From positions 1 to 35,674 of the IMG/VR virus record IMGVR_UViG_3300034152_000127: 35,674 nt of DNA, one strand, 5' to 3'. Shown here one piece after another: positions 4,474 to 35,663 of this stretch. The notes beneath the pieces were generated by a model. It was not told the origin of the DNA. It saw nothing but the letters and a program-made list of their open reading frames with translations, and did not search any database. The stretch's first letter is position 1, and each line of letters opens with the position of its first letter. The stretch is from a virus. The position numbers and the translations under genes are program-made.

Positions 4474-5468
4474 TCGTCCATCCCGAGCGCCTGCCGTGCC
4501 GCCGCCTCGATCGCATCCCACTCTTCGAGGTCGCCGTACTGCCGAGGGGCGCGGCCCGTGTCGACGTCGTGTTCGCGGCGTCGCGCTCGCCAGCGTGCGA
4601 CCCGTTCGACGAAGCGGTAGAGCGCCTTCGCGCGCTCGATGGCGTCGTCGTAGCCGTGAGTCTCTGCCCGCTGGTCGTCGCCCCACAGTGCGTCGCAGAC
4701 GTCGGCGAGCAAGCCGGCCGTCTCGGTGTCCTCTTCGTGCTGGCGAGCGAGCGAGTCGATCTTCGCGTTGGCGATCTCGAGCATGCGGAACCACTCGCCG
4801 TACACGCCTCCGTCCCACTCGGCCAGTTCGAGTTCGTCGGCACCGTAGAGCTCAAGCGCCCTGCGCTGCGCGTTGACCATTCCGGCCCACGCTTCCATGA
4901 CGGCGGTGTCGTGGCACTCGCTCATGCCGGGGAGCGCCTGCACCGCCTCGGCCATCTTGGTTCCGGCCCGCGCGAGCAGCTGCGCGATGCGCGGCTCGTT
5001 GTCCTGCTCTGCGCCGAGCGCGACGTGCTTCACGCGTGAAGCGGCTTCGAGCGATCGGCCTGCGATACTGACGAGCATCTTGCGCTCGGCGACGAGAGCG
5101 GCCTTGCTCGGCTCGCGGTCCGGTGCGGCGGCGACGCGCTTGATGTAGTAGCCGCGCGAGTGCCCGCTCGGCGTGTACTCGAGCAAGCCCCACCCTTCGG
5201 GCACCTCCGACTTGTCGACGAGCGCGGGCGGCGTCAGGAACCACCGCTCGTGTCCGACGCCGTTGCCGGCGCGCTCGTGCGGCTTGTTCGCGTTGGCAAA
5301 GAAGTCGTCGCGCGAGGTCTTGGCTTCGACGACCGTGCAGCGTCCCCAGCCGGTCCACCCGATCGCGTCGGGCGTCTCGCTGGCGTTCGTCTGTAGCTCG
5401 GTGCCGACGACGCGATGGTTGCGCTTGAGCCACGCAGCCGCGGCCTTGACGAGTGTGTCGTGCTTCAC
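4470..5468 (-). CDS. PD-(D/E)XK nuclease-like N-terminus with long helical C-terminus
   Basis: A 332-residue protein. Residues 1-100 match the stand-alone nuclease-like domain common in phages and related to the MmcB/restriction-endonuclease fold: KHDTLVKAAAAWL, then P-D34 in a PDAIGW strand, then E48-A-K50 in VVEAKTSRDDFF, and the P-E-G-W-G-L-L-x-Y motif. The remaining 230 residues are helical, including a charged segment with IERAKALYRFVERVARW. The start is GTG at 5468: GGAGGAGCGC precedes it and GTGA overlaps the upstream stop. Cleavage activity is plausible because the acidic and Lys positions are intact. Confidence 0.7.
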   Translation of the reverse strand: MKHDTLVKAAAAWLKRNHRVVGTELQTNASETPDAIGWTGWGRCTVVEAKTSRDDFFANANKPHERAGNGVGHERWFLTPPALVDKSEVPEGWGLLEYTPSGHSRGYYIKRVAAAPDREPSKAALVAERKMLVSIAGRSLEAASRVKHVALGAEQDNEPRIAQLLARAGTKMAEAVQALPGMSECHDTAVMEAWAGMVNAQRRALELYGADELELAEWDGGVYGEWFRMLEIANAKIDSLARQHEEDTETAGLLADVCDALWGDDQRAETHGYDDAIERAKALYRFVERVARWRARRREHDVDTGRAPRQYGDLEEWDAIEAAARQALGMDE

Positions 5469-5725: not shown

Positions 5726-6282
5726 GCTTCGCCCTGGGTGATCACGCCGTCGAAGCGGCCCCTCGTGGTCATGCCAGGCGGAAGCTCGATCGGTGCGACC
5801 TCCACCACCTTGCCGAACTGGTCGCGGACGATCTCGCCCATGCGATAGCACTCGCCGGTTCGCCCCTGCGCGTGGACCAACAGGATCTCCTTGCGACCCG
5901 GCGCGTGCTCGAGTCCTTCCTTGTCGTAGCGCTCGCGCGCTTCGTCAGCGGCTTTCCCGTCCTCGTTGCGAACGTCGAGCATCCACGCCTCGTTGATGAT
6001 TGCGAGCGCGTGCGCGTCGACGTCACTGGCGTACTTGTGGATCACGTTCGCGGCGAGCTGCTTGCCGAGCGCTGCGTCCGGCATCCCGTAGAGGTTGCCG
6101 AGGTTCATCATGTGATAGCACTCGTGCGTCTGGAACACCGCCGTCGGCGGGTGTCCGCCGTCTTCCTTGGCTATCTGCACCGCGCGGCTCCACGCGATGT
6201 CGGCCAGCTCGCTGTAGTTGCGAGGCGGCGGGTCGTCGAGCGCCAGGCGTCCGCACGGTATGTCTACGAGTCCCATGTCCAT
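5722..6282 (-). CDS. Unknown 186-residue protein
   Basis: Starts MDMGLVDIPCG at 6282, with GGGAGGG 5 nt upstream. Segments of note are FQTHECYHMMNLGNLYG, a long helix with DEARERYDKEGLEHAPGR, and a C-terminal strand-rich part with GECYRMGEIVRDQFG. The His/Cys/Glu concentration in the first of these could form a metal site. There is no signal peptide or membrane segment and no recognised family. It lies between two nuclease-like genes in one operon. Confidence 0.6.
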   Translation of the reverse strand: MDMGLVDIPCGRLALDDPPPRNYSELADIAWSRAVQIAKEDGGHPPTAVFQTHECYHMMNLGNLYGMPDAALGKQLAANVIHKYASDVDAHALAIINEAWMLDVRNEDGKAADEARERYDKEGLEHAPGRKEILLVHAQGRTGECYRMGEIVRDQFGKVVEVAPIELPPGMTTRGRFDGVITQGEA

Positions 6283-6283
6283 G

Positions 6284-6859
6284 TCACCCTCCCATCGGTT
6301 CGGGTATCCACCGCCATCGGAAAGGCGGCACCCTGTTCAGTTCTCTGCCGGCGAGCACGAACGACTGAGCGAAGCGCTCGGCGTCCGGCGACACCGGGCT
6401 GTTCGGGAAGTCCTCGGCGGTGGCCCACCCTATGATGTGCGCGACGTTGTTCTCGAGGTCGACGACGACGAGCACGTACACCCAATCGGCGTGCCACTCG
6501 CGCGTGTGAACGGCGAGGCGGTAGTCGAGCAGGTCGCGCGATCCACCGAGTAGCCGTGCCGCCTTGACGTCGAGGTTCAACCCCGTGAAGTCGTAGCCGC
6601 CGTCACCAGAGCCGCGATACAAGTTCGCGTAAAACTGGTTCACCAAGTAGTCGCCGACATGCCCACGCAGGTAGCGGTTCACCGCGATCATCCCGATCTG
6701 CCCGACGAGGTTGTCGAGGTACAGTCGCTCGCCGCGCTCGTCGTCACGTCGGACGTTGGACGCACCGCCCTTGCAACAGGCGCGGGTCTGCGCCTCCGCG
6801 AGCCGCCTCGTCTCTTCCGAGATCCCGACGCGGACAACGTGTCGAGCTTCGACGGGCAT
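6284..6859 (-). CDS. PD-(D/E)XK nuclease-like protein
   Basis: A 191-residue protein with a restriction-endonuclease-like core. A helix with GQIGMIAVNRYL is followed by D90 in GGYDFTG, D97-V-K99 in NLDVKAARL, and later an edge strand WVYVLVVVDL and a WATAEDF segment. D90...D97-x-K99 forms the classic catalytic triad arrangement, so activity is plausible. The start at 6859 overlaps the upstream stop as TGATG. Similar stand-alone proteins are common in phages and usually lack an assigned substrate. Confidence 0.65.
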   Translation of the reverse strand: MPVEARHVVRVGISEETRRLAEAQTRACCKGGASNVRRDDERGERLYLDNLVGQIGMIAVNRYLRGHVGDYLVNQFYANLYRGSGDGGYDFTGLNLDVKAARLLGGSRDLLDYRLAVHTREWHADWVYVLVVVDLENNVAHIIGWATAEDFPNSPVSPDAERFAQSFVLAGRELNRVPPFRWRWIPEPMGG

Positions 6860-7050
6860 CAGCCGAGAAACCGCTCCAGCGCCGCGTCGCTGAACTCGAG
6901 GTCGTCGCCGTGTTCGTCGTACAGCTCCTGCAACCGCTCGCGCGTGATCTCCTCGAACGTGAAAAAGAAGAACTTACCCTTGGCCTCGGCCCGCGTGTCG
7001 AATACGCGCTTGCCGATGGTCGGAATGTCGAGATACCAGAACGTCTCCAT
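6859..7050 (-). CDS. Short protein, function unknown
   Basis: A 63-residue protein (METFWYLDIPTIGKRVF at its start). GAGGAGG lies 6 nt before the ATG at 7050, so the longer upstream extension is rejected. Aromatic residues are concentrated in the middle (KGKFFFFTFEEI), followed by an acidic helix ending DAALERFLG. It is probably a small folded adaptor or inhibitor; nothing specific can be assigned. Confidence 0.6.
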   Translation of the reverse strand: METFWYLDIPTIGKRVFDTRAEAKGKFFFFTFEEITRERLQELYDEHGDDLEFSDAALERFLG

Positions 7051-7060
7051 GATCGCCTCC

Positions 7061-7639
7061 TCAGTGAAGTGTGCCGTTCTTCTTCGACTCCGCTGCCGCA
7101 CGCGCCGCGCGGCATTCCTCGCAGTCGCAACTGTCGGACGCCTTCTTCGCGCCGAGCACCGCCGCGACCGCCTCGAGCGGGTCGAGCATCCTGATCGTCG
7201 CCGACGGCTCTGCGTCCATCGCCGCCATGAGCAAGCGATCGACTGCCTCCTTCGCCGCGTGGTACGTCGCGGGCAGCATCTTCTTCGAGGCAGAACCGAG
7301 CAGCACCGAGTTGCCAGCGTAGGCACCCTCGCCGTCGGCGAGCTTCTGCTCGGTGCGCGTGGCGAGGTTGAGCGGCACGTCGGCGGAGTCGACCATCGTC
7401 GTGACGAGCGTCGAGCGCGAGTGCGCGATCAGCATGAGTACGTCGGCGACGTTGTTCCTGTAGGCGAGAGTCTCGTCGGAGTCCGGCTCGTCCCCTCGCT
7501 CCTCCGCGTGATCGATAAAGCGTTGCGCCATGTGACCAGCGAGCACCATCACCGCCTCGATGACGTCGGTCGACATCTGGATCGGCTCGAACCGTTCGCG
7601 CGCCTTCTTGCTCCCCCACTTGTACTCGGTCGTGTCCAT
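7061..7639 (-). CDS. Helical protein with C-terminal Cys motif
   Basis: A 192-residue, mainly helical protein (IEAVMVLAGHMAQRFIDHA, NVADVLMLIAHSRSTLV, YHAAKEAVDRLLMAAMDA). Near the C-terminus is a compact CDCEEC motif before an Ala/Lys-rich tail. Three Cys in six residues can hold a metal, but four ligands are not obvious, so binding is uncertain. The start at 7639 follows AGGAAAGG at a rather long spacing. No known family is recognised. Confidence 0.6.
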   Translation of the reverse strand: MDTTEYKWGSKKARERFEPIQMSTDVIEAVMVLAGHMAQRFIDHAEERGDEPDSDETLAYRNNVADVLMLIAHSRSTLVTTMVDSADVPLNLATRTEQKLADGEGAYAGNSVLLGSASKKMLPATYHAAKEAVDRLLMAAMDAEPSATIRMLDPLEAVAAVLGAKKASDSCDCEECRAARAAAESKKNGTLH

Positions 7640-8866: not shown

Positions 8867-9016
8867 GTCGTGTCCTCTGGTGCTCAGTGGGTTGACGACG
8901 CCGCGCCGCGTGCTCGCACCGGATAGACCGGGATGGCGACGAGGCGGATTGACCGGATCGCCTGACGGTGTTCGTCGTGTCCCGTTGCTGGTGCTGGACC
9001 GGCCAAGAGGCGGTGC

Positions 9017-9036
9017 GGGGGCCAGGGACAGCCCCC
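9017..9036 (-). other. GC-rich hairpin in a leader
   Basis: GGGGGC (9017-9022) and GCCCCC (9031-9036) form a perfect 6-bp stem around an 8-nt loop. It lies between the promoter-like element at 9062-9106 and the first gene, starting at 8866. No U-tract follows on the minus strand, so it looks like a leader structure rather than an intrinsic terminator. The rest of 8867-9125 holds nothing else I can support. Confidence 0.4.
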
Positions 9037-9061
9037 GGCGGTGCTAGGTCGTGCGTCCATG

Positions 9062-9106
9062 TCTATATCAGTTTACCCGCATGAACACTGGTTTTCCACG
9101 ATATAG
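9062..9106 (-). promoter_or_regulatory. Promoter-like element with shared upstream motif
   Basis: On the minus strand a -10-like TATAGA lies at 9067-9062. The -35 position is poor, suggesting activator dependence. Upstream, the plus strand carries GGTTTTC-N3-GATATA (9090-9105), which recurs at 30741-30756 before the XRE gene at a similar distance from its -10 (24 versus 22 nt). An inverted pair CTATATC (9063-9069) / GATATAG (9100-9106) brackets the element. It would drive the cluster from 8866 leftwards. Confidence 0.4.
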
Positions 9107-9125
9107 GCGGAGGTGCGGAGCAGGG

Positions 9126-9347
9126 TCAGATTTTCAGTTCGGCCTCGGTGGCTTGGACCGGGATCGGGGGGCGCTCGGCGTCCACGAAGTAAACCGGCTC
9201 GCCGTCCGCGTCGTGACGGATCGTCTTGACGACTGCCTTCACCCCGTTATCGTTGAACTGCTGCGACCAGGCGTTCACCAGGCGCACCTCGTCTCCCTCT
9301 TTGAACTTCGGCTCCTGCTTCTTGGGCTGCTTGTTCTCGTCGGTCAT
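9126..9347 (-). CDS. Small KOW/SH3-like protein
   Basis: A 73-residue protein: a charged N-terminal tail (MTDENKQPKKQEPKF), then FKEGDEVRLVNAWSQQFNDN, a VKTIRHDADGEPVYFVD hairpin and a C-terminal strand. The G-D-E-V-R-L...G-x-V-Y-F-V pattern is that of a small SH3/KOW-type barrel, common in short phage proteins. GGAGG lies 6 nt before the ATG at 9347. A 6-bp hairpin (CTGCGG/CCGCAG) sits in its short leader. The role is unknown. Confidence 0.55.
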   Translation of the reverse strand: MTDENKQPKKQEPKFKEGDEVRLVNAWSQQFNDNGVKAVVKTIRHDADGEPVYFVDAERPPIPVQATEAELKI

Positions 9348-9418
9348 CTTGTCCTCCAAGTTGTGCTGCGGTGATCGCCCGCAGTCTATCACGGTTTCCT
9401 GTTCCGTGTACCCGTTTC

Positions 9419-10030
9419 CTATTTCCCCGCGCACGCTTCGCAGACGACGACCTTCGGGTCGACGATCGACTGTGCGTGGCGATGCACCGCGGCTTCGTCT
9501 GTTGTGTACGACTCGACGAAGGTCGAGCCGCAGCCGGCGCACACGAGCGCGATGCTGTGCTCCTTCGGATGGTCTGCGAACACGTGCGGGTGAACGATCT
9601 TTGGCGGTGTGTCCCACTGTAGCTTGATGTCGAGTCCCTGCGTCTGCGCGCCGTGTCCCGTGCCGTGCATGTCGCCGTCGACGAGTCCGTCTGCGATCAA
9701 CTCGTTGACCGCCTGCCACACAACGTGCAGCAGATGGTTGCGCCGCATCGTCTTGTCGAGCTGCTTCTTCATCCGGTTGCTTCTTTCCTGTGATGTCTCC
9801 GGTTTTAGCGTCTCGCACCTTGCGTTGTAGTGCTGCGGCGGGTTGATCTGCTGCGCCATCTGGAACACGGCCTCTTCGAGCATCTCTTTCGTGAGTTGTC
9901 CGCCGTCGCAGTAGTCGACCACCTTCGCGGGAAGCTCGACGCGCACCTCGCTGACGTACGTCTGGTGCTTGAGAGGTGCGCCGTCGAGCGAACCCTCGCG
10001 GTAGAGGACTGCCTGATCGCCGTCGGTCAT
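9419..10030 (-). CDS. Unknown protein with C-terminal zinc knuckles
   Basis: A 203-residue protein starting MTDGDQAVLYREGSLDG at 10030, overlapping the upstream stop by ATGA. Residues 30-110 are helical and charged (TKEMLEEAVFQMAQQIN, MKKQLDKTMRRNHLLHVVWQAVNEL). The last 45 contain CAGCG and CEAC, with several His (HPHVF, HPKEH, HRHA) that together can form a zinc site. No family is recognised. Its neighbours are a basic helical protein and the adenine methyltransferase. Confidence 0.6.
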   Translation of the reverse strand: MTDGDQAVLYREGSLDGAPLKHQTYVSEVRVELPAKVVDYCDGGQLTKEMLEEAVFQMAQQINPPQHYNARCETLKPETSQERSNRMKKQLDKTMRRNHLLHVVWQAVNELIADGLVDGDMHGTGHGAQTQGLDIKLQWDTPPKIVHPHVFADHPKEHSIALVCAGCGSTFVESYTTDEAAVHRHAQSIVDPKVVVCEACAGK

Positions 10031-25938: not shown

Positions 25939-27117
25939 CTAGTCGTCGATGCCGAGCTGCTTCTTGCGCTCCGCCTCCTCGCGCTCCGCCTCCTCCGCTT
26001 CCATGCGCAGGGCATCGGCCTTCTCCTCGTCGCTCATGTCGCCCTCAGCGCCCGCCTGCTGGCCGTTGTCGCCCTCGGCCTTGTCCTGGGCCGCGTCGTC
26101 GCTGTCGTCGCCCTGCGGGGCCTTCCCGTCGCGCGCAGCCGCCTCTGCGGCCATCTTGGCGGCGAGTCCCTTCGTCTTGGCGAGCGAGAGGTTCTGCGCG
26201 TCCGCCAGCTTGCCCTCGTTCGGAGCGTTGGCCTCGAGCTGGCTCGCGATCACCGACGGCAGGGTCGTGCGGGCGATGTCGGCGAGCTGCTGCGACACGT
26301 TCGCCTCCTCGAGCGATGCGAGGTCGGCGGCGCGCTGGAAGTCCGGCGAGAGCGGCCAGTACTTGGCGCTCCAGCGAATCGGCGTCTTCTTGATCATCGG
26401 GATCGGAAACGCGAGCCACGGCTGCTTCGCGATCTGCTGGTAGTTCATTTCGTACTCGCCGCGGTCGCCCTTGCGAAGGTAGCGCTCATTGCCGTCGCCG
26501 CCCGTCTCCACGCGGATGCCTTTCTCCGCGAGGATCTTGTTGCGGTGCACGAGTATGTCGCTGAACGGGTACACCTCGAAGCTGTAGTAGCCCGCCTTGA
26601 ATCGCAGACCCGAGTACACGGCGACCATCGGCCCGCGCTCCTCCGGCGTCTTGCGGTGGTCCCACCTGTGGTGAACGAACGGCTCGGAGCCGCGACGGAA
26701 GTCGAACTCGTCGTCGTGGTGAACGATGATCGATTCGACCTCTCGCACGTCGGGGTCGCGATAGGCGATGTCGATAAAGCCGCGATAGCCGATCTGCGCC
26801 TGTGCCTCGTAGTGCGAGATCTCCCACCTTCCGGTCTGCGGGTTCTTCTCGCGGACGGCGCGCGCGGACAGGTACGCCTGGCCGAGCGGTCCCTCGAGTC
26901 GGAGTCCGAGCGACGCCACAGTCATCAGCGCGCCCATGAGCGAGAGCGGCTCGCAGTTCAGCAGCTTGACGTCGAGACGAATCGTCGTCAGCGCCGCCTG
27001 CACCCACGGGTCGACGGGAACGTTGCGCGGTAGCGTCTTGCGAAGCACGTCGCGCATCGCCTCGTTGTCGAGCCACGACTTCACTCGGTCGTATGATCCC
27101 TGTTTGTTGCTGGTCAT
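25939..27117 (-). CDS. recT: RecT-family ssDNA-annealing protein
   Basis: A 392-residue RecT-type recombinase. Residues 1-190 carry the family core: a KSWLDNEAMRDVLRKTLPRN opening, TTIRLDVKLLNCEPLSLMGA, GLRLEGPLGQAYL, then AQIGYRGFIDIAYR, IIVHHDDEFDF and the MVAVYSGLRFKAG strands. The last 100 residues are acidic and disordered (AEREEAERKKQLGIDD at the end), longer than in typical RecT. It anneals single strands produced by the exonuclease encoded two genes upstream. The start at 27117 overlaps the upstream stop by ATGA. Confidence 0.9.
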   Translation of the reverse strand: MTSNKQGSYDRVKSWLDNEAMRDVLRKTLPRNVPVDPWVQAALTTIRLDVKLLNCEPLSLMGALMTVASLGLRLEGPLGQAYLSARAVREKNPQTGRWEISHYEAQAQIGYRGFIDIAYRDPDVREVESIIVHHDDEFDFRRGSEPFVHHRWDHRKTPEERGPMVAVYSGLRFKAGYYSFEVYPFSDILVHRNKILAEKGIRVETGGDGNERYLRKGDRGEYEMNYQQIAKQPWLAFPIPMIKKTPIRWSAKYWPLSPDFQRAADLASLEEANVSQQLADIARTTLPSVIASQLEANAPNEGKLADAQNLSLAKTKGLAAKMAAEAAARDGKAPQGDDSDDAAQDKAEGDNGQQAGAEGDMSDEEKADALRMEAEEAEREEAERKKQLGIDD

Positions 27118-27833
27118 GGTTTCCCCTTCTTCTTGCGCCGACGTGCGTCGGCTTTCTTCTTCTGCGCCTCGACGAGAGCGGTGCCGACCTTGGCGACACT
27201 GTCCTCGATGGTTTCCGCTTCCCTGCGTAGCGTGCGGACGAACAGGTCCGCCCTGTTGGTGAGTTCGTCGAACGTCTCGACGTCGATGTCGTTGCCGTCC
27301 ATGCCCTCGAGCAGCCTGCCGATCTCCGAGCGCAACGCCTCGAGGTGTCCCTCGACGGTGTCGCCCTGTAGCGATACCTCGACGATCTCGAACTGCGAAC
27401 CCATCTCGCGCAGCTCCTCCACCTCTTTCTCGGTGGCGACGAGCTGCAGCGAGCCGGGCAGCGCGTCGTTCGCTGCGGTGTAGACGTTGCCGTCTGACGA
27501 CGTGTACGTCAGCATCATGTGCTTGTGCATCTTGTCCTTCGGCTTCATGTGGACGGCCCACAGTCTGCCGTGGAACTGCCGCGACGGTGTCGTCGTTGGG
27601 AACTCGGCGGGAGCTATGCGCTCGAACACGCCGCGAAGGTCGCCGGTCATCGACATGATCTTGCTGCGCTTGGCCGTGATCTTCGTTGTGCCTGTAGCGA
27701 CGTCGTCATCGATCTCGACTTGCCTCGGGCGCAGCACCATGCGGACGGGCGCTCCTTCGAGGCCGTCGACCTCGAGCACGATCGCTCTGCCGCCGTAGGT
27801 GTACGACGGCTTGTACTGCTCCTTGCTTCCCAT
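27114..27833 (-). CDS. Unknown partner protein with shared C-terminal module
   Basis: A 239-residue protein between the exonuclease and RecT genes. The first 150 residues are strand-rich (GGRAIVLEVDGLEG, RMVLRPRQVEIDDD, FHGRLWAVHMKPKDKMHKHM). Residues 157-223 are helical and align with the C-termini of the exonuclease and the 34722-35663 product, including T-F-D-E-L-T-N-R-A-D-L-F. The tail is Lys/Arg-rich. ATG 27833 overlaps the exonuclease stop (TGATG); GTG 27836 is possible. No ribosome-binding site is seen, so translation probably depends on the exonuclease gene. It may hold nuclease and recombinase together. Confidence 0.65.
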   Translation of the reverse strand: MGSKEQYKPSYTYGGRAIVLEVDGLEGAPVRMVLRPRQVEIDDDVATGTTKITAKRSKIMSMTGDLRGVFERIAPAEFPTTTPSRQFHGRLWAVHMKPKDKMHKHMMLTYTSSDGNVYTAANDALPGSLQLVATEKEVEELREMGSQFEIVEVSLQGDTVEGHLEALRSEIGRLLEGMDGNDIDVETFDELTNRADLFVRTLRREAETIEDSVAKVGTALVEAQKKKADARRRKKKGKP

Positions 27834-29053
27834 CACGCGGTGAGTGAGGCGACGAGCGCCTTGTGCGCCTTGTCGATGCCGGTGGCGATCCCTTCTTGCT
27901 CGAGGTTGAGCATGCGCAGGTACAGCTCGGCCCGGTCGCGGAGTTCGTCGAAGGCGTCGACCGCGTCTTCGTCTCCGATGCGCCTCGAGATGAACAGCGA
28001 CAGCTCATCCTTGAGCGTGAGCAGCTGACCGTCGAGCGTTTCGTCGCCGTAGCGAGCCTCGTCTTTGGGTCCGTAGTGACGGAACGACTTGAACGAATTT
28101 CCCTGCTTCTCGTAGCGAGTGAGATCGATCTCGGGGTGCTCGGCCTTGAGCTTCTTCTTGTCGAAGCTCTTGCGGCCCGCCTGCTCCGCATTCGAGAACT
28201 TGTGTCCGTTGGCGGTGATCACCTTGTCGAGTCCCGCCTCTTCGAGCGCCGACTTGATCTGCGCCTTGGCCGCGTCGAGCCTGAGCTTCGATGCGGTAAA
28301 CGCTTCGTCGGCGAGCGTGAACTGCTTGACGGCCTCGTCCCACGCATCGCCGTCGACGTGCTGGTACTCTGACTTCGACTTCGGGATCTTGATCGGCTGC
28401 GGCGGTGCGGCCTCGATGGGCGGCTCGTCCCGCTCGACGTGGTTCTTCCAGAAGTGCTCGGCGTTGGCGAGGATCGCCCCGATCATCTCGTCGTTGCGCG
28501 GCACCTCGTAGATCTGTACGTCGCACTTCTCCGGCTCGTAGATTACGAAGCACACGCCAGGGCAGCCGTCGGGCAGCTTGCCGAGGTGCGGAAGCTCGCC
28601 GACGCTTGCGACGTGTACGAGGTGCTGCCCTTGCACTTGGTAGTAGTCCTTCAACCCCTCGGCGCGGATGCGGTCGGCGACGCGCTGCATCGGCGACTTC
28701 ACCTCGACCACCCAGCCATCCTCGCGCAGTCCGTCGAAGTCGGCGTACAGCCACGGGCGGTCGGGGTCGACGACCTGAAACTCATTCCACCGCTCCTCGT
28801 CCGTCTCCGGCGCGTAGATCTTCATGCCGAGCTTCTGCTCGGCGAGCGCGATGGCGAGCGGCTCGTACATATGGCCGCGTCGAAAGTTGACGTTGTCGGG
28901 CTGCGGCTCGGGCTTCGACTTCTTGCTGATGTACGTGTCGAGCGATGTCGACTCGAACACCTTGCCGAGTGCGAGCACGGGCGAATCGCTCGAACCGACG
29001 CCGCGCTGGCGGCTCTCGAGCCATTCCTGTTCGTTGGTGATCCTCTTCGTCAT
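27833..29053 (-). CDS. YqaJ/lambda-type exonuclease with extra C-terminal module
   Basis: A 406-residue PD-(D/E)XK exonuclease. The core is intact: V-G-S-S-D23, E64 in RRGHMYEPLA, D105/D107 in LYADFDG, E117-V-K119 and the YYQVQGQ helix. It degrades one strand at double-strand ends so RecT can anneal. Beyond the usual size, residues 220-330 form helices, and 337-404 form a coiled-coil module shared with two other proteins here. Its GGAGGCAAACCATG initiation region (29064-29051) is identical to that of the 35663 gene and complementary to the 30260-30348 hairpin loop. Confidence 0.9.
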   Translation of the reverse strand: MTKRITNEQEWLESRQRGVGSSDSPVLALGKVFESTSLDTYISKKSKPEPQPDNVNFRRGHMYEPLAIALAEQKLGMKIYAPETDEERWNEFQVVDPDRPWLYADFDGLREDGWVVEVKSPMQRVADRIRAEGLKDYYQVQGQHLVHVASVGELPHLGKLPDGCPGVCFVIYEPEKCDVQIYEVPRNDEMIGAILANAEHFWKNHVERDEPPIEAAPPQPIKIPKSKSEYQHVDGDAWDEAVKQFTLADEAFTASKLRLDAAKAQIKSALEEAGLDKVITANGHKFSNAEQAGRKSFDKKKLKAEHPEIDLTRYEKQGNSFKSFRHYGPKDEARYGDETLDGQLLTLKDELSLFISRRIGDEDAVDAFDELRDRAELYLRMLNLEQEGIATGIDKAHKALVASLTA

Positions 29054-29064
29054 GGTTTGCCTCC
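29051..29064 (-). promoter_or_regulatory. Initiation region matching the hairpin loop (exonuclease)
   Basis: The minus strand reads GGAGGCAAACCATG, ending in the exonuclease start codon. Thirteen nucleotides are exactly complementary to the minus-strand RNA of loop positions 30311-30299. The same 14 nt recur at 35661-35674. Confidence 0.5.
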
Positions 29065-29070
29065 TTGTTG

Positions 29071-30243
29071 CTACCACCAGCTATACAAGCCAGGGTACGG
29101 GTCATCTGCGATCTCGTAGACCGCTTCGTCGCGAAGTGTCCCGGCGCACACGCGCCTGTACGGGCAGACGCTGCCGCGCGCGGCGCAAGCTCTCGGGTTG
29201 CGGGGCCACGTGCCGCGCCGCCGCGCCGTCTCGATCTCTCGGATCGTCTCGTAGGTATCAGCGAGCCACGAGTCGATCTGTTCGTCGGTGACGAAGCGGC
29301 GCACGCGGTAGGCGAATGACTCGCCGCGCTTGGCGAGCCTGTTCAGCAGCGAGCGAGCGGCCTCGCGCTGCTTGTCGTGGTCGAGGTGCTTGTACTGCTC
29401 GAGCTTGCTATTCCAGATCGCCCACGTCGTGTCGCACGCTGCGACGCTCATGCCGCCGACGCCTGTTCCGTTGCACGTCGGGCAGGGCTTCCGCACCTTG
29501 AGTCCAGAGTCGTCTTCGGTCAGGCAGTAGCCGTCTTTGCAGTGGCGACACTTCGTCGTGTTCGGAATCGATGGCGGTTTCGTGCGAACGAAGTCGAACT
29601 CGACGACGCGGACGGGCTTGCGGTTGAGCTTCGATGCGGCCCAGCAAAGGCCAGGGATGTCGAGCCGGTGTCCGAGTTCGGTGCGTACGTCGAGCGGGTC
29701 TGCGTTCGACGTCAGGTGCCTGACGACGAGCATCGGCTCGCCGTCCTCGTTCACGGTCAAGCGGTCGAGTAGGTGCGCCACCGTGTACTTCGACGGTCCA
29801 CCTATCTTCTTGCGCTCGAACGTTGGCAGTCGGTGCTCGACGATGCGCCGCACTACTGGCTTGCCCTTGCGCTTGATGGCGTGCGCGACTGAGGCGTGCG
29901 CGTCCTCGTAGTGCACGAGGATACCGGCGACGTCGTCCTCGATGGCGCGCATGGTTGCTGCGAGATCTTCGTCGTGGGTGCTCGCGGCTCTCGTGTCGCG
30001 TGACCATTTCTCGGCCGCGCGCGCGACGATGCCGTCGACCTCGCCGGGCTCCTTGTTGAGCGCCAGCGCGAGGTCGCGAGCGTAGAGCACCTCGGCGAGC
30101 AACGACTTGACGCGCGGCGGGAACCAACGCGATCGGTTCGCCAGGCGGTAGTCGTTGACGTACTCGATGTTGAATCGGTGTCGGCAAGACGCTGCCACGC
30201 CAAGCATCGACGGCGTGTAGCGCGTAGAGGGTCGCGTCTGCAT
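29071..30243 (-). CDS. RecB/Cas4-like Fe-S protein with degenerate nuclease site
   Basis: A 390-residue protein of the RecB-like PD-(D/E)XK_1 group. The four-Cys Fe-S cage is present: C20 near the N-terminus and C353-x6-C360-x5-C366 near the end. E136 and D160 occupy nuclease-fold positions, but the D-x-K strand reads V-V-R175-H-L177-T, so the catalytic Asp and Lys appear lost. A DnaJ-type zinc insertion (CRHC..., CPTCNGTG; residues 232-259) is unusual. It is the first gene after the 30260-30348 hairpin, in an operon with the exonuclease and RecT. Catalysis is doubtful; DNA-end binding is possible. GGGGTAG is a weak ribosome-binding site. Confidence 0.7.
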   Translation of the reverse strand: MQTRPSTRYTPSMLGVAASCRHRFNIEYVNDYRLANRSRWFPPRVKSLLAEVLYARDLALALNKEPGEVDGIVARAAEKWSRDTRAASTHDEDLAATMRAIEDDVAGILVHYEDAHASVAHAIKRKGKPVVRRIVEHRLPTFERKKIGGPSKYTVAHLLDRLTVNEDGEPMLVVRHLTSNADPLDVRTELGHRLDIPGLCWAASKLNRKPVRVVEFDFVRTKPPSIPNTTKCRHCKDGYCLTEDDSGLKVRKPCPTCNGTGVGGMSVAACDTTWAIWNSKLEQYKHLDHDKQREAARSLLNRLAKRGESFAYRVRRFVTDEQIDSWLADTYETIREIETARRRGTWPRNPRACAARGSVCPYRRVCAGTLRDEAVYEIADDPYPGLYSWW

Positions 30244-30259
30244 CTTCTACCCCGTGCGG

Positions 30260-30348
30260 GAGTCCCGCTCACAGAGGGACGGGCGAGCGTAGCTCAACGG
30301 AGGCAAACCATATCACCCGGCTCGCTCGTCCCTCTGTAGGCGGGACTC
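30260..30348 (-). ncRNA. Long hairpin with anti-ribosome-binding-site loop
   Basis: Positions 30260-30288 pair with 30320-30348 in 29 pairs with one mismatch and two G-U wobbles. The loop is 30289-30319. On the minus strand the loop reads AUGGUUUGCCUCC, complementary to GGAGGCAAACCAU at the starts of two genes. The hairpin overlaps the XRE stop codon (30347-30349) and lies before the 30243 start. No U-tract follows. It could be an RNase III-processed regulatory RNA, an attenuator or an antisense loop. That a transcript exists is inferred. Confidence 0.55.
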
Positions 30349-30655
30349 AGTCGAAGAATCCTTCGCCGTCGGTGCCAGTCCTCTTTTGCCGACGACGATC
30401 CATTTTTGCCTTTTTGGCTTGTGCGTATTCGTGTTCGGACACGGGCGTCAGCAACACCTCCATCGGCACCTCGAGCGCGCGAGAGATTTCGAGCGCGAGT
30501 GTCGCCTTCATGTTGCCTCTGCTGATGACGTCATGCAGCGACTGCGGTGTCTTGCCGATGCGTCGAGCGAGTTCGGCCCGTGAAATGCCGATGCGGTCGC
30601 ACTCGACTTCGATCCTCAGTCGCAGGTCGTTGATTCGGTCATTCTGACTTGTCAC
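30347..30655 (-). CDS. XRE-type (Cro/CI-like) helix-turn-helix regulator
   Basis: A 102-residue protein with a lambda-repressor-like domain: LRLRIEVECDRIGISRAELA, then RIGKTPQSLHDVIS as the recognition region and ALEISRALEVPMEVLL. The C-terminus is basic and disordered (KAKMDRRRQKRTGTDG). It has no oligomerisation or cleavage domain, so it is Cro-like. The start is GTG at 30655, with AGGAAACA just upstream; a longer in-frame start at 30715 would lie at or above the promoter -10. It is probably the regulator of the recombination operon. Confidence 0.8.
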   Translation of the reverse strand: MTSQNDRINDLRLRIEVECDRIGISRAELARRIGKTPQSLHDVISRGNMKATLALEISRALEVPMEVLLTPVSEHEYAQAKKAKMDRRRQKRTGTDGEGFFD

Positions 30656-30710
30656 TGTTTCCTGCCTCGTGTCCTGAAAGCCACGCCCCGCGCGGCCCAA
30701 CCGTCCATCC

Positions 30711-30756
30711 AGCATAGGGGCGGGTGCGCGTACACGTCAAGGTTTTCGGGGATATA
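30711..30756 (-). promoter_or_regulatory. Sigma70-like promoter of the XRE gene, with shared upstream motif
   Basis: The minus strand reads TTGACG (30740-30735), an 18-nt spacer and TATGCT (30716-30711). Immediately upstream is the motif GGTTTTC-N3-GATATA on the plus strand (30741-30756), also found at 9090-9105. An AT-rich tract continues beyond. This is the strongest sigma70-like promoter I see in the window. Confidence 0.6.
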
Positions 30757-30799
30757 AGATTCGGAAACCCACGAGCCGCGCACGTTACCCGAGTCGGGT

Positions 30800-31207
30800 C
30801 TACGTGCGGTCGGCCTGGGTCACGAACTGCGCGCGCCGTAGCTCCAGCTCGCGCTTGATGGCTTCGCGGGCGCGGTCGGATGTCAGCGGCGAGCTGAACT
30901 CGTATCCGGCGACCAGCTCGAGCGCGTAGTCGAATCCTGCGAGGTAGTCGTCACAGCGCTCGCTGATCTCCTGCTTACGAGCGTGGCAGCTCACGCACCG
31001 CTGCGGGACGGCGTCGGGGTTGTTCCCTTGGCGGTACGCCTCGATGTCGTCGTTCGGGATCTGCTGCCCGCAGTCGATGCACGTCGGCGCGGCGTCGGTC
31101 TTCTTGTTGAGTCCGTCGGCGATGCGCTCGAGCGCGCGTGCGATGCGAGGTACGTCGACTTCGTAGAACTTCGCGCCCATGCGCGTCTGAAAGAATTGAA
31201 TCGTCAT
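30800..31207 (-). CDS. Zinc-knuckle protein, function unknown
   Basis: A 135-residue protein. Two Cys pairs, CIDC near residue 43 and CVSC near 71, enclose a short loop and probably hold one zinc, as in small DksA-type fingers; the following helix (KQEISERCDDYLAGFDYALEL) supports that resemblance. The N-terminus is MTIQFFQTRMGAKFYEVDVP. The start at 31207 overlaps the upstream stop by ATGA, with AAGGAG upstream. A DksA-like role on host RNA polymerase is possible but not shown. Confidence 0.55.
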   Translation of the reverse strand: MTIQFFQTRMGAKFYEVDVPRIARALERIADGLNKKTDAAPTCIDCGQQIPNDDIEAYRQGNNPDAVPQRCVSCHARKQEISERCDDYLAGFDYALELVAGYEFSSPLTSDRAREAIKRELELRRAQFVTQADRT

Positions 31208-31398
31208 CGTGCTCTCCTTGTTGTCGTGACGTACCGCGCCGGCTCCTCGTCGAGCTTGCGGGTCGGCCACTTCTTGAGTGCGTGCGTCGTCTGCTGCAAG
31301 GTGCGCCCGCATCGCGGGCAGGCGGTGAACCGTAGCGGGTAGTCGCGCCGCCACTCGAAGCGCAGCTCGCAGAAATTGCACTTGCCCTGCCTCGCCAT
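31204..31398 (-). CDS. Short zinc-ribbon protein
   Basis: A 64-residue protein: CNFC near residue 7 and CPRC near residue 27, twenty residues apart, form a four-Cys zinc ribbon; a basic helix follows. TGATG overlap with the upstream stop sets the start at 31398. Small phage zinc ribbons often bind nucleic acid. Nothing more specific is seen. Confidence 0.6.
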   Translation of the reverse strand: MARQGKCNFCELRFEWRRDYPLRFTACPRCGRTLQQTTHALKKWPTRKLDEEPARYVTTTRRAR

Positions 31399-31610
31399 CA
31401 CACCACCTCGTCGAGCGCGTCGGTGTCGGCGAGCACCCTCTCCACGGCGTCGACGAGTAAGCCGTTCAACCACTCGTCGTCGTCGGGCGTGAACGCCTGT
31501 CCGTCCCACGAGCCGGTCATCACGCGCCCGTGTCCGTCTTGGTAGACCGCGACGGCGCTACCGAAGATCGACACCTCGATGAGTGCGCCCTCGAACCTGA
31601 AACAGATCAT
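31398..31610 (-). CDS. Short protein, function unknown
   Basis: A 70-residue protein (MICFRFEGALIEVSIFGSAV at its start). AGGAGGAGCC directly precedes the ATG at 31610, and the start overlaps the upstream stop by ATGA. The N-terminus forms two strands; the C-terminus is a helix (EWLNGLLVDAVERVLADTDA). Unassigned. Confidence 0.6.
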   Translation of the reverse strand: MICFRFEGALIEVSIFGSAVAVYQDGHGRVMTGSWDGQAFTPDDDEWLNGLLVDAVERVLADTDALDEVV

Positions 31611-31942
31611 GGCTCCTCCTTCCATGTGCGCGACTTCTCAATTAGCGCCTGCGTGTAGCGAGCGCCGAGTCGAGCGAGCAGCGCTTCTTCGTCCTCGAGT
31701 TCGTCGGGCGTTGGTACGTGGTCTACGATGCGGTACGTGTTGAGTCCGTTGCAGCATCCAGCGCCGAAGGCGAGTACCCGCTCGACCCGACGCTTCTCTT
31801 GCTGGTCGGCTTGTTCGTAGTAGCCACAGCGCCAGCGGTGGCCGTCCCACTCGAGGTGCTTGCACCGACCGCGGCTCTCTGCCGTGCGGTCGATCCCGCA
31901 CGTCGCCTTCCGGCAGCAGAAGCCGCAGCCGATGCACTCCAT
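31607..31942 (-). CDS. Cysteine-cluster protein, YkgJ-like in part
   Basis: A 111-residue protein whose N-terminus has C3-x-x-C6-x-x-C9-C10 and C15, with further Cys at 27 and 39 and a late GAGCCNG. The CxxCxxCC opening resembles the YkgJ class but lacks the C-P-F-L...R-P-x-x-C part, so it is a distant or different cluster protein. The start at 31942 overlaps the VWA gene stop (TGATG). Metal or Fe-S binding is likely. Confidence 0.6.
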   Translation of the reverse strand: MECIGCGFCCRKATCGIDRTAESRGRCKHLEWDGHRWRCGYYEQADQQEKRRVERVLAFGAGCCNGLNTYRIVDHVPTPDELEDEEALLARLGARYTQALIEKSRTWKEEP

Positions 31943-33414
31943 CAGACCCTCTGAAAGAACTTGTGCATCGCCTCGTCGTTGCGAAGCACGTCGTCGAGGT
32001 GCACCGTCTCGTCGCTGAACAGCTTGTTCGTGTCGGCGCTCGTGTAGGTTCCGACGAGAATTGAGTACACGGAGAACGACAGCTCGCGCTGCGCCGCCTT
32101 GAACTGAGCGAGCCACGAGTCGTCGACGCGGGCGTTGCCGTCCGTCACCATGACGATGTCGGCCTCGGAGAACGCTCCGGTGTCGCGGATCTTCTTGACG
32201 GCCTCGGACAGCGGACCCATGAAGTTCGTTCCGCCGTCGGCGGCGAAGAACGACACGGCAGCGAGTACCTCCTCGCGGTCGATGTCGGCCCACTTCGTGA
32301 ACGTGTCCACGCGCAGTACGTTCGCGCCGAAGTGAACGATCGCGAACGCGCGCTTCTGCTTGTAGGCGATCTCGAGGAACGCCAGCGAGACGGCTGCGGC
32401 CCACACGTCGGCGTCACCGGCGCTCATCGACCCGCTGCTGTCGACGACCATGACGATCGGCCCCTGTTCCTTCTTCGGCGTCTTCGACAGCTCGAACTGC
32501 AAGAGGCTGCGCTCGTGGAGCTTGGACGCGAACACGAGGTCGATGTCGTCGTCGGTGTAGAGCGCTTCGGCTGGCACCATCTTGCGAAGCTCGTCGCCGC
32601 ACTCGATGCCGGTCACCTCGTCGGTTCCCTTCTGTGGCTTCTGGCGCTGCTGCTCCATCGCGATGCGCCGCATTCTGCCGGCGAGCTCTGCGATGCGCTT
32701 GAGCCGCTTGTTCTGGTTCACCACCGACGCGAGCTTCTTGTGCACGGCCATCCGCGCCTTTCGCCCGCTGTGCTGCTCCATGCCGAAGCTGAACGCGTCG
32801 ACGAGCCGTTCCTCGGCGTCGACCTGCTCGTTCGCCTTCTTCATGGCCGAGCGGATCGCGTTGCGGACGTCGGTGTCGTCGAGCATCGATGCGGCCTGCT
32901 CGTTGCGCTGCTTGCGCGCGGGCAGTCCGTTCGGGTTGTTCGGGTCGAGCTGCTCGTCGATCGTTTCCTGCAACGCCTCGCGCTCCTCGTCGGTGTCGGC
33001 GTTGTCGCGCAGCCGCTCGAGGTACTCGACGACCTCTTCGTCGCCACGAAGATCCTCGACGGGTTCCTCGGGCGCAGGCACGGAGTCGAGCAGCGTGTCG
33101 ATGACAGCGGCGGTGCCGATGCCGGCCCAACGCTCGTTGCCCTTGCTGCGCTGGCGGAAGTCCTCGACCTCGGGCAGCTCGTCGATGCGCTCGTGCAGCT
33201 TGACGAACACGTCAGCGCCGGTCGCTGGCTCCTCGAGCTTCTCGGGCTGCTCCGCATAGAGGCGGTGAAACACCTCCGCCGAGAAGTCCGAAAACGCTTC
33301 GTAACGATCGCGCCCGACGCGGTCGGACTCCTCTGCGGCCTGGTCGACCATCTTGTGGTACTTCCACAGATGACGCTGAAAGCCGCTTGGCTTGTAAACG
33401 AGAGGGTCAGACAT
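31942..33414 (-). CDS. VWA-domain protein, ViaA-like
   Basis: A 490-residue protein. Residues 1-300 are helical and charged. Residues 319-480 form a von Willebrand A domain with an intact metal (MIDAS) site: D325-S-S327-G-S329-M, T396 in GGTNF and D425 in VTDGNA. This is the layout of ViaA/CobT-like partners of MoxR-class AAA+ proteins: helical N-terminus plus C-terminal VWA. The gene lies 10 nt downstream of its AAA+ partner. Together they likely remodel a substrate complex or load metal; the target is unknown. Confidence 0.85.
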   Translation of the reverse strand: MSDPLVYKPSGFQRHLWKYHKMVDQAAEESDRVGRDRYEAFSDFSAEVFHRLYAEQPEKLEEPATGADVFVKLHERIDELPEVEDFRQRSKGNERWAGIGTAAVIDTLLDSVPAPEEPVEDLRGDEEVVEYLERLRDNADTDEEREALQETIDEQLDPNNPNGLPARKQRNEQAASMLDDTDVRNAIRSAMKKANEQVDAEERLVDAFSFGMEQHSGRKARMAVHKKLASVVNQNKRLKRIAELAGRMRRIAMEQQRQKPQKGTDEVTGIECGDELRKMVPAEALYTDDDIDLVFASKLHERSLLQFELSKTPKKEQGPIVMVVDSSGSMSAGDADVWAAAVSLAFLEIAYKQKRAFAIVHFGANVLRVDTFTKWADIDREEVLAAVSFFAADGGTNFMGPLSEAVKKIRDTGAFSEADIVMVTDGNARVDDSWLAQFKAAQRELSFSVYSILVGTYTSADTNKLFSDETVHLDDVLRNDEAMHKFFQRV

Positions 33415-33423
33415 CGCGCACCT

Positions 33424-34620
33424 CTACTTCTTCTGGCGGAAAAACGTCACCGTGCTCATCATCTCGTCGACGTTGGCGATGGCGGCGTTCACCGTCTCGT
33501 TGGCCTCGGCGATGGCGGGGTTCTCGTCACCAGCCTCGTCGATGACGTCCAGCAGCGCGTCGCGGCGGCTGGCGACGTTGCTCGACACGTCGCTGATCTT
33601 CTTGATCATCTCGACCTTCGTCATCTGCCCGCTCTTGAGCAGCGAGATGTCGGGCAGCTCGCGCATCGCGGTCTTCACCGCGTCGATGATTGCCTCGGCG
33701 CGCGCGCCGTACGGGTCGGCGGCGTTGCCGATGATCGTCGACAGGCGCTCGCGCTCCTTGTGCTCCTTCCAGAGCACGTCGGCCAGTACCATGAAGTCGT
33801 TGCTCACGACGTTGCTGCGACCGGCGAGCACCGCGCGGGCCTTGATGGTCCGAACGGCCTTCACCCACGTCCTGTCGGATGCGACGAAACCCTCGTCCTC
33901 GACTGCGGCCTTGATGTTCAGCAGCGTGTCGATGTCGCCGTTCTTGAACGGCATCGAGTCGACGGCGTCGCGCAGCACGTCGAGGTCGCCCGGCTCGAGC
34001 TTCGCCGTCACCGGCGTCGTGCCACCAGCGCCGAGCAGCTTCGCGAGCGAGTCGCGGTCGCTGATGTAGTCGACCCAAAACTTGAAGCTGAACCGATCGA
34101 ACAGCGCCTGCAGCGAGTCGTCCTGCGGGTACTCGTTCGACGCCGACAGCATGATCTCCAGCGGGCAGTCGATGAGCTGTCCGCCGTTGTGGAACTTGCG
34201 CTCGTTCATCAGTGTCAGCTTCGTGTTGAGGATCGCGCTCGACGCCTTGAAGATCTCGTCGTCGAAGATGACGCGAGAGGTCGCGGCGTAGCCGTCGAGC
34301 ATCCGCTCGAAGCGGTCGTTCTTCAAGGCGCTGAACGACACGGGGCCGAAGACCTCTTCGACGGTCGTGAACTTGGTCAGCAGGATCTCGAAGTACGAAC
34401 CGTCGGCGACGGCGTTGGCGAACGTGCGCGCGAACAACGACTTCGCGGTGCCGGGCGGTCCGAGCATCAGGCAATGCTCGCTCGACAGCAGCGCCGTCAT
34501 CGCGCCACGCACCAGCGAGGTGCGCTCGGGGAATGCGGCGTCGAGTTGCGCGGTCACCTCCTTGGCGCGCGCGGTGGCGTCGTCGAGGTCGGGGAGCTGC
34601 TTCTTCGTCTTTGCGTTCAT
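33424..34620 (-). CDS. MoxR/RavA-type AAA+ ATPase
   Basis: A 398-residue AAA+ protein. Walker A is G54-P-P-G-T-A-K60-S; Walker B VIFDD121-E122 is followed by I-F-K-A-S-S-A-I-L-N-T, the RavA/MoxR signature; sensor 1 is N162 in LSASNEY. MNER and FDRFSFKFWVDYI are also typical. The C-terminus is helical. Its initiation region, GGAGGCAAACCGATG, shares 11 nt with the exonuclease and 35663 genes. It partners the VWA protein encoded next. Chaperone or activation function is inferred from the pair. Confidence 0.9.
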   Translation of the reverse strand: MNAKTKKQLPDLDDATARAKEVTAQLDAAFPERTSLVRGAMTALLSSEHCLMLGPPGTAKSLFARTFANAVADGSYFEILLTKFTTVEEVFGPVSFSALKNDRFERMLDGYAATSRVIFDDEIFKASSAILNTKLTLMNERKFHNGGQLIDCPLEIMLSASNEYPQDDSLQALFDRFSFKFWVDYISDRDSLAKLLGAGGTTPVTAKLEPGDLDVLRDAVDSMPFKNGDIDTLLNIKAAVEDEGFVASDRTWVKAVRTIKARAVLAGRSNVVSNDFMVLADVLWKEHKERERLSTIIGNAADPYGARAEAIIDAVKTAMRELPDISLLKSGQMTKVEMIKKISDVSSNVASRRDALLDVIDEAGDENPAIAEANETVNAAIANVDEMMSTVTFFRQKK

Positions 34621-34632
34621 CGGTTTGCCTCC
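34618..34632 (-). promoter_or_regulatory. Initiation region partly matching the hairpin loop (AAA+)
   Basis: The minus strand reads GGAGGCAAACC (34632-34622) followed by GATG. Eleven nucleotides match those of the exonuclease and 35663 initiation regions and are complementary to the 30260-30348 loop; the extra G breaks the match at the start codon. Confidence 0.45.
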
Positions 34633-34645
34633 TTCGGTCCTCTTA

Positions 34646-34715
34646 CCTCGAGGAACCTCGAAGCCCGCTCATCCACTTGACAAGCGGGCCTCGGCGCTCC
34701 TCCAAGCGCCGGGCC
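34646..34715 (-). other. Cluster of three hairpins in the AAA+ leader
   Basis: Between the module gene and the AAA+ gene are CGAGG/CCTCG (34649-34660), GCCCGCT/AGCGGGC (34663-34669 with 34683-34689) and GGCC-CGGCGC/GCGCCG-GGCC (34687-34715, one bulge). The last has an 8-nt loop which on the minus strand reads TTGGAGGA, a ribosome-binding-site-like sequence. No U-tract follows. The second and third share three bases, so they may compete. Confidence 0.45.
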
Positions 34716-34721
34716 TTTGCC

Positions 34722-35663
34722 CTAGTTGTTCTTCGCTTCCTCGACGACGGCCAGCGACGCGACGAGTCCTTTGTGCGCATCGTTGAGTCGCTTCATCAGC
34801 TCGTCCTGCTTGTTGCCGAGCACGCGGGCGTGCAGCTCGATCTGGTCGCGGAGGTCGTCGAACATCTCGACCCGCTTCTCCAGCGTCGACACGCGCGTGT
34901 TGCCCTTCGAGCAGAACGACTGCAACTGCTCCATGAGTCCGTCGAGTCGCGCCTCGAGCGTTTCCTCGGACGCCGTGATCAAGCTGTTGATCGTCTCCTC
35001 GGTGTCGAACACGGGAATGATCACCGTCGAGTTGCCGAGCGCGGACATAAACTCCTTCCACGCGCGGACGCGGTCGGCGTTCGGCGACGGCACCCACCAC
35101 AAGCCGCCGTGCTCGAGCAGCCGGATCGCTCCCCACCGCTCGAACGCGCGCTGGAACGCGACGCGGATGTCGCCGGGCAGGTAGCGCACGCAGAGGTCTT
35201 CGTACTGCGCCTTGACCTTCTGCGCGATCGGGTGCGTCTCGTCGGACAGCTTGAGCATCTCGTCGGCGTCCTTGCCGTCCTTGTACGCCTCCTTGTCGAA
35301 GCCGACCTTGCACTCCGTCTCGAACGAAGCGTCCTTCGGCGACAGCGACCCACCGGCCGCGTCGACGATGTCGCGCCGGACGATGGCGTGCACGATCTTC
35401 AACTCCGTCTCCTCGATCTTGACCGCCGCGAAGCGGCGCTCGTCGCGGCGTCCGCCCTTCACGGCGTCGTTGACCGCGCGGCGGTACGCGCTGGCGGGCG
35501 AGAGCTTCGGCAATCCGAGATCCTCGTCGAGTCCGTGCTGCTCGGCGAGGTCGGTTACGGTCGACTGCTTGTGCGCGCCGTTGAGCGACCAGCCACACAG
35601 GTCGCCCAAGTGCTTGCCCTCTTGCATTGCGAGCAGCTTGTTCATCACCTCTGACTTCGTCAT
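34722..35663 (-). CDS. Unknown protein with shared C-terminal coiled-coil module, AAA/VWA partner
   Basis: A 313-residue protein. The first 220 residues (MTKSEVMNKLLAMQEG, then SPASAYRRAVNDAVKGGRRD, an IVHAIVRRDIVDAAGG segment and a WWVPSPNADRVRAW part) recall an uncharacterised phage family often seen with MoxR/VWA genes (possibly DUF6744; I am unsure). Residues 234-304 form the helical module shared with the exonuclease and 27114-27833 products: M-F-D-D-L-R-D-Q-I-E-L-H-A-R, ending D-A-H-K-G-L-V-A-S-L. The start at 35663 has GGAGGCAAACCATG, identical to the exonuclease. Confidence 0.6.
   Translation of the reverse strand: MTKSEVMNKLLAMQEGKHLGDLCGWSLNGAHKQSTVTDLAEQHGLDEDLGLPKLSPASAYRRAVNDAVKGGRRDERRFAAVKIEETELKIVHAIVRRDIVDAAGGSLSPKDASFETECKVGFDKEAYKDGKDADEMLKLSDETHPIAQKVKAQYEDLCVRYLPGDIRVAFQRAFERWGAIRLLEHGGLWWVPSPNADRVRAWKEFMSALGNSTVIIPVFDTEETINSLITASEETLEARLDGLMEQLQSFCSKGNTRVSTLEKRVEMFDDLRDQIELHARVLGNKQDELMKRLNDAHKGLVASLAVVEEAKNN

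Follow-up and report, generated by a model that had tools for sequence, protein, structure and literature searches.

MoxR ATPases have been reported to play a chaperone-like role (PMC3893208), and a 2020 eLife paper describes VWA domains as peptide-binding adaptors of these ATPases (PMC7159879). The same paper describes the effector-associated domains (EADs) of MoxR-vWA ternary systems and GTPase conflict systems, small and mostly helical units that are proposed to couple effectors by homotypic contact; in a MoxR-vWA system a core component carries one copy, and enzymes encoded nearby carry others. Viral MoxR-vWA pairs, that of HVTV-1 among them, are already known; a role in virion assembly has been proposed for the pairs of jumbo phages (group 2.2) and Acidianus two-tailed virus (PMC7824862), and the role in haloviruses has been called unclear (PMC7911831). 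Here, we analysed a virus record of 35,674 bases (IMGVR_UViG_3300034152_000127, positions 1 to 35,674; the window) in which a MoxR-vWA pair is encoded side by side next to a protein of the DUF6744 family (PF20529), and in which the C-terminal tail of the DUF6744 protein recurs on a putative recombination exonuclease and on the product of the adjoining gene, hereafter the neighbour protein.

All features of the window described here lie on the minus strand. The exonuclease (406 aa; 27833..29053) carries its tail at residues 338-404 (27842..28042) and the neighbour protein (239 aa; 27114..27833) at residues 158-222 (27168..27362), both delimited by pairwise alignment and profile searches. In the DUF6744 protein (313 aa; 34722..35663), the core matched in the other carriers spans residues 233-304 and lies within a predicted three-helix bundle (residues 222-312; 34728..35000) delimited by the AlphaFold2 model and the range of its structural matches. 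A preliminary description of the sequence had seen the same C-terminal pattern on these three proteins, and each occurrence was found where it had been placed. The N-terminal parts are unrelated, as had also been supposed, comprising a YqaJ nuclease domain, a DUF6744 alpha/beta domain and, in the neighbour protein, a domain of no known family.

In pairwise alignment the exonuclease tail scored 104 with that of the neighbour protein and 117 with that of the DUF6744 protein, scores that none of 5000 shuffles equalled in either case, and the neighbour-DUF6744 pair scored 44, with 74/5000 shuffles as high. Class-preserving shuffles reached these scores in 2/5000, 0/5000 and 687/5000 cases, respectively, so that the link between the neighbour protein and the DUF6744 protein is firm only via the exonuclease and its relatives. 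The profile search suggested in the preliminary description gave a clear outcome among 5491 distinct open reading frames (ORFs): every profile of two tails, with segments cut by a profile trained on all three kinds, retrieved the third. The exonuclease and neighbour tails found the DUF6744 protein at E 7.0e-8 (top non-member 1.5), the DUF6744 and neighbour tails found the exonuclease at 5.3e-14 (0.68), and the exonuclease and DUF6744 tails found the neighbour protein at 2.3e-5 (0.2), all non-members thus lying at 0.2 or above. At the family level, DUF6744 tails alone retrieved 10/10 exonuclease tails, close relatives included (5.9e-10 to 5.0e-7), and 2/2 neighbour tails (1.2e-4 and 2.4e-4). 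A full-length profile of DUF6744 proteins only, containing no exonuclease, matched the exonuclease tails of five independent loci and of the near-identical L015 at 2.3e-8 to 1.7e-3 (L-numbers denote the fetched loci or records used in the comparisons). Profile searches revealed no further tail carrier within the window, and six other bacterial genomes yielded no match to the tail profiles at E 0.1. By alignment and profile evidence, the tails of the three proteins are homologous.

Two other accounts of the likeness were rejected. A generic coiled coil is ruled out by the shuffles, by the profiles against the 5491 ORFs and by the null result in the six bacterial genomes. The codons rule out gene conversion as a recent source of the copies in the window: agreement at positions 1, 2 and 3 is 23, 27 and 24 of 37 for the shared ends of the exonuclease and the DUF6744 protein and 35, 41 and 31 of 65 for those of the exonuclease and the neighbour protein. 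The third position thus shows no excess of agreement, and the tail copies are not recent. The ending AHK-[AG]-LVASL, noted earlier on two of the three proteins, does occur on two only, and among the aligned relatives it is confined to this genome and the DUF6744 side of L003, a 95% relative.

The tail belongs natively to DUF6744. The window protein matches the Pfam model at 1.4e-13 (50.9 bits, cut-off 27) over profile positions 18-296 of 314, which makes the tail the family's own C-terminus, and the region can be aligned across twelve members of the family, taken from phages, a plasmid and the window. The idea of an undescribed shared module was therefore correct insofar as one module is present on three proteins, but the module is not free-standing, being the C-terminal part of Pfam DUF6744. 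The AlphaFold2 model of the protein (11 sequences; mean predicted local distance difference test score (pLDDT) 82.8) places tail helices at residues 222-253, 258-277 (with 279-282) and 285-312, a predicted small, non-enzymatic three-helix bundle and not the extended coiled coil that had been envisaged. Its top structural matches are BAG domains (Z 12.3, root-mean-square deviation 1.2, 80 aligned), a score within the background in which unrelated helical bundles reach Z about 12-14 (about 13 by chance), which indicates likeness of shape and not relationship; no BAG match was found in Pfam at E <= 1 for the window proteins. With the fold of the DUF6744 protein as query, Foldseek returned nothing from the PDB at E 0.001 or better. 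Over most of its length the model is matched by four predicted structures of viral proteins, including protein L7TK87 of Haloarcula virus HVTV-1 (Foldseek E 8e-13), and these matches support an old viral family while naming no function. No relative of the DUF6744 protein was found by tblastn in phage records, and a literature search returned no paper containing 'DUF6744'.

Next to the DUF6744 gene lie the genes of the MoxR/RavA-type AAA+ ATPase (33424..34620) and of a ViaA-like VWA protein (31942..33414). The ATPase matches bpMoxR at 1.7e-48 (164.8 bits against 27) and a RavA model at 2.9e-58, with an intact P-loop (GPPGTAKS), and the VWA protein matches VWA_3 at 3.6e-9 and VWA_2 with 37 bits against 27, with an intact MIDAS motif (DSSGS). 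Both fall below the NCBIfam equivalog thresholds, with 198 bits against a cut-off of 681 for RavA and 73.5 bits (1.9e-20) against 500 for ViaA. MoxR and VWA genes were present in the same fetched locus in 23/25 DUF6744 loci, a count in which L069 and L070 carry the same ORF, L006 was found via a MoxR query and the pair of L012 lies about 7 kb away; the exceptions are an archaeal contig with neither gene (L067) and a 4.1-kb contig with VWA only (L072). Hosts include Anaeromyxobacter, Streptomyces, Nonomuraea, Kutzneria, Saccharopolyspora and Streptosporangium. This association makes DUF6744 a recurrent third component, apparently belonging to a machine of RavA/ViaA-like type. In MoxR-vWA ternary systems the third component may be a VMAP, iSTAND, FtsH or beta-propeller protein; the Pfam scan of the component found here, with no profile comparison aimed at those families, returned DUF6744 alone at significance.

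The trio of DUF6744, MoxR and VWA genes is also carried by a Streptomyces plasmid, a Moorella phage and several bacterial genomes (L005, L006, L064-L066, L068-L071, L073), pointing to what may be a wider, uncharacterised three-gene system. In Saccharopolyspora soli (L065), a frame-broken second DUF6744 copy (9015-9737) follows the intact one. L069 and L070 are metagenome-assembled genomes filed as Ammonifex and Desulfovibrio; they have one and the same DUF6744 ORF at identical locus coordinates, which points either to a binning error or to a single element common to both.

The tailed protein of the window is a phrog_434/YqaJ member, a putative YqaJ/RecE-type PD-(D/E)XK exonuclease by its profile matches (phrog_434 1.7e-44; Pfam YqaJ 2.3e-11) and by the residues D107, E117, K119 and Q141, which are invariant in 6/6 aligned exonuclease sequences and which we take to be catalytic. 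The phrog_434 profile covers residues 6-332 only, and in five tailed exonucleases scanned it ends at residue 319-339, so the tail beyond it is an addition to the exonuclease. Search patterns placed within the nuclease part found relatives in seven further virus records (L014/L031, L015/L032, L033, L034, L035, L074 and L075), and the tail was present in 7/7. A scan with the tail itself added L083, L085, L086 and L087, four records biased toward the tail by this mode of search, giving a tail in 12/12 records with this exonuclease, window included. The exonucleases of L074 and L075 and those of L085 and L086 are copies, one per identical pair having been merged out, and those of L014 and L015 are near copies. 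When L083, L085, L086 and L087 were searched as whole records, each showed two or three tail carriers, with no other match at E 0.1. The phrog_434 exonuclease of Arthrobacter phage Abba (gp35) ends without the ~70-residue tail, and the whole Abba phage gave no tail match. In a search of phage records, among 60 matches listed of 93, all end at or before exonuclease residue 317. No relative was returned by single-sequence scans with the exonuclease and the neighbour protein, nor by a first profile search of genome contigs with the exonuclease alignment.

The tailed exonuclease and the DUF6744 cassette occur in the same gene cluster. In 9/12 exonuclease records DUF6744 is encoded upstream, at a distance of some 5-7 kb, and the interval holds the MoxR and VWA genes. 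The remaining records (L033, L034, L075) are contigs that break off <1.5 kb upstream of the exonuclease gene; DUF6744 is thus present in every exonuclease record that is not cut just upstream. In L014, a 247-codon frame shared with L015 contains a weak tail-like stretch (5317-5457) that scored E 6e-4 and 0.0018, and 0.04 with the DUF6744 tail of the same record; by these scores it is possibly a fourth tail carrier.

The neighbour protein is coupled to its surroundings by overlapping start and stop codons, as TGATG with the exonuclease upstream and as ATGA with the RecT gene downstream, an arrangement of translational coupling. It matched no family among Pfam, PHROG and NCBIfam-type profiles, and tblastn found no relative in phage records. 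Tailed proteins in this position occur in two records, the window and L087, in which the exonuclease is followed by a 287-residue tailed protein (6219-7079, TAATG overlap) and then by RecT; L087 therefore has the complete set of tailed proteins, arranged as in the window. A single BLASTP comparison aligned the L087 protein with the neighbour protein at E 2e-5 and 19% identity. Shuffles equalled the score of the isolated N-terminal parts in 11/2000 cases, and that of the two tails in 72/5000 in one cut and 17/3000 in another. These values make common descent of the two proteins likely, short of proof. In L014, L015, L033, L034, L035, L074, L083 and L085, RecT directly follows the exonuclease with no comparable gene between.

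In a tree of 20 tails, all nine DUF6744 tails fell on one side with 93/93 support and nine exonuclease tails grouped on the other, with the neighbour tail of the window beside the exonuclease tail of the window. The neighbour tail of L087 was placed weakly with the DUF6744 side, and both neighbour branches are long and unsure. As the tree separates the tails mainly by kind of protein, the fusion to the exonuclease is an old one that has been passed on vertically. Purifying selection acts on the tails: two exonuclease pairs had enough changes, and in both dN/dS of the tail resembled that of the nuclease body (0.112 versus 0.080 in one; 0.116 versus 0.121, with dS saturated, in the other). The L014/L015 pair, with three tail changes only (ratio 0.63), is uninformative.

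The architecture fits that of EADs, no named EAD was matched and the carriers are phage recombination proteins, and on these grounds we propose docking on the DUF6744-MoxR-VWA machine followed by remodelling. The tail would be an adaptor, a small helical domain through which the exonuclease and the neighbour protein dock on this machine, a reading to which we assign a probability of about 0.6. The home of the domain would be the C-terminus of DUF6744 proteins, partnered in the MoxR-VWA trio, and in one phage family the exonuclease would have gained a C-terminal copy by an ancient fusion, as would the neighbour protein in some members. The exonuclease and its neighbour would probably dock by pairing of like domains or by binding of each to one common face of the MoxR/VWA complex. 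While phage DNA recombines and replicates, the ATPase would then load, release or remodel the exonuclease at DNA ends, an ATP-driven step that would follow from the reported chaperone-like role of MoxR. The preliminary description had suggested a docking or an oligomerisation role, and a role of this kind is the best reading of the module, the docking itself being a step that we infer.

Several observations count against the proposal. EAD copies in neighbouring genes are closer to each other than to other copies; here, exonuclease and DUF6744 tails from the same record scored 84 versus a mean of 73 for swapped pairs, with 50/5040 permutations as high, a closeness that is only modest and mostly due to the window itself. 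Over its tail the exonuclease was modelled poorly, with a pLDDT of about 45, so that the three-helix fold of this tail is assigned by homology only. Outside the phage clade, no second protein with a tail was found in the loci or records examined: a second tail copy was absent from the complete records of the Streptomyces plasmid and the Moorella phage and from the loci with 8-10 kb flanks (L008-L013, L064-L066, L068, L069, L071 and L073, leaving out L067, L070 and L072). These loci contain only DUF6744 itself, the broken copy in L065 and weak matches at E 0.2 or worse, and the tail must therefore act in DUF6744 without an exonuclease.

This last point, a tail in DUF6744 proteins with no tailed exonuclease nearby, would also be accounted for if the tail bound a third partner, such as MoxR, VWA, RecT, SSB or a host factor, the AAA+ machine reading it as a client tag and the three tailed proteins never touching one another. 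Lambda Exo, Red-beta and SSB do interact via their C-terminal regions. The passages on VWA domains as peptide-binding adaptors of MoxR ATPases (PMC7159879) also agree with such a tag. Three helices make for a large tag, however, and RecT also follows the tail-less phrog_434 exonuclease of Abba, so that RecT alone is unlikely to be the tail reader. On balance we regard a tag for a third partner as unlikely, if worth serious consideration.

Another explanation is that the tail is a homo-oligomerisation domain of each protein, gained by shuffling within the genome and entailing neither hetero-contacts nor a link between the AAA machine and the nuclease. Helical bundles commonly oligomerise and YqaJ/lambda-type exonucleases work as ring oligomers, and the grouping of the DUF6744 tails on one side of the tree (93/93) also speaks for this view. 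Yet tail-less phrog_434 exonucleases exist, the neighbour protein carries the tail too, and the DUF6744 cassette lies a few kb upstream of the tailed exonuclease in every sufficiently long record, which together render this explanation quite improbable. Hardly credible is the suggestion that the likeness is generic amphipathic-helix similarity or a non-functional residue of duplication: the neighbour-DUF6744 pair does not rise beyond class-preserving shuffles (687/5000), but the profiles separate members from 5491 ORFs and found nothing at E 0.1 in the six other bacterial genomes, and the tails are under purifying selection.

A RecT-type annealing protein (25939..27117; Pfam RecT 1.9e-30) follows the neighbour protein and gave no tail match in its frame. 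The gene directly upstream of the exonuclease (29071..30243) is kept in this position in relatives by locus comparison, and its product has no Pfam or NCBIfam match; the L014 counterpart has weak matches to PDDEXK_1 (0.033) and to a DnaJ zinc-binding profile. PADLOC models of known anti-phage defence proteins returned 0 families for 5 proteins at E <= 0.01.

The clients of most MoxR-VWA pairs, above all of phage ones, are not known, and a domain shared between a third component and a nuclease offers a testable client. Beyond what the preliminary description contained, DUF6744 emerges as a recurrent third gene beside MoxR and VWA, and the exonuclease tail as fixed in a phage family; no title or abstract returned by a literature search describes the shared tail. 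If docking is correct, DUF6744, a family of phages, plasmids and bacteria, would gain a likely role as machine adaptor, lambda-Red-like recombination would be linked to AAA+ remodelling, and the processing of phage DNA ends would be gated by ATP-driven, chaperone-like remodelling. The idea of EAD coupling would then extend beyond bacterial conflict systems.

Among known systems, EADs offer the closest parallel. Like them, the tail is small, helical and non-enzymatic by prediction, sits at the C-terminus of a core component, DUF6744, and has more copies on nearby enzymes, the trait of copies in the same gene cluster being represented by the YqaJ exonuclease in 12/12 records and by the neighbour protein in two. 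The differences are that Pfam finds DUF6744 alone at significance over the tail and no named EAD by sequence, that DUF6744 is not among the third components named in the relevant passages of PMC7159879, that the carriers are phage recombination proteins and not conflict effectors, and that the tail is inherent to DUF6744 and not an optional fusion. No EAD was among the Pfam matches at E <= 1 for the three proteins, in a copy of Pfam whose EAD content was not checked. As regards Pfam DUF6744 itself, a family catalogued with no assigned function, the window protein is a member including its tail, whereas the exonuclease and the neighbour protein do not match the model in the Pfam scan. BAG domains, which belong to HSP70 co-chaperones, resemble the DUF6744 tail in shape with no sequence match, and Abba gp35 shares the nuclease domain and the body up to residue 332 but is without the tail. 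The coupling of an AAA_5-clade ATPase to a PD-(D/E)XK nuclease has a precedent in McrBC. With RavA-ViaA, the locus shares the pair of AAA+ MoxR and VWA proteins with P-loop and MIDAS motif intact, and it differs in the third protein, DUF6744, and in the two tailed recombination proteins. We consider the chances about even that the exonuclease is a docked client of the MoxR-VWA-DUF6744 machine through an EAD-like adaptor, in which case the EAD principle would operate in phages outside immunity.

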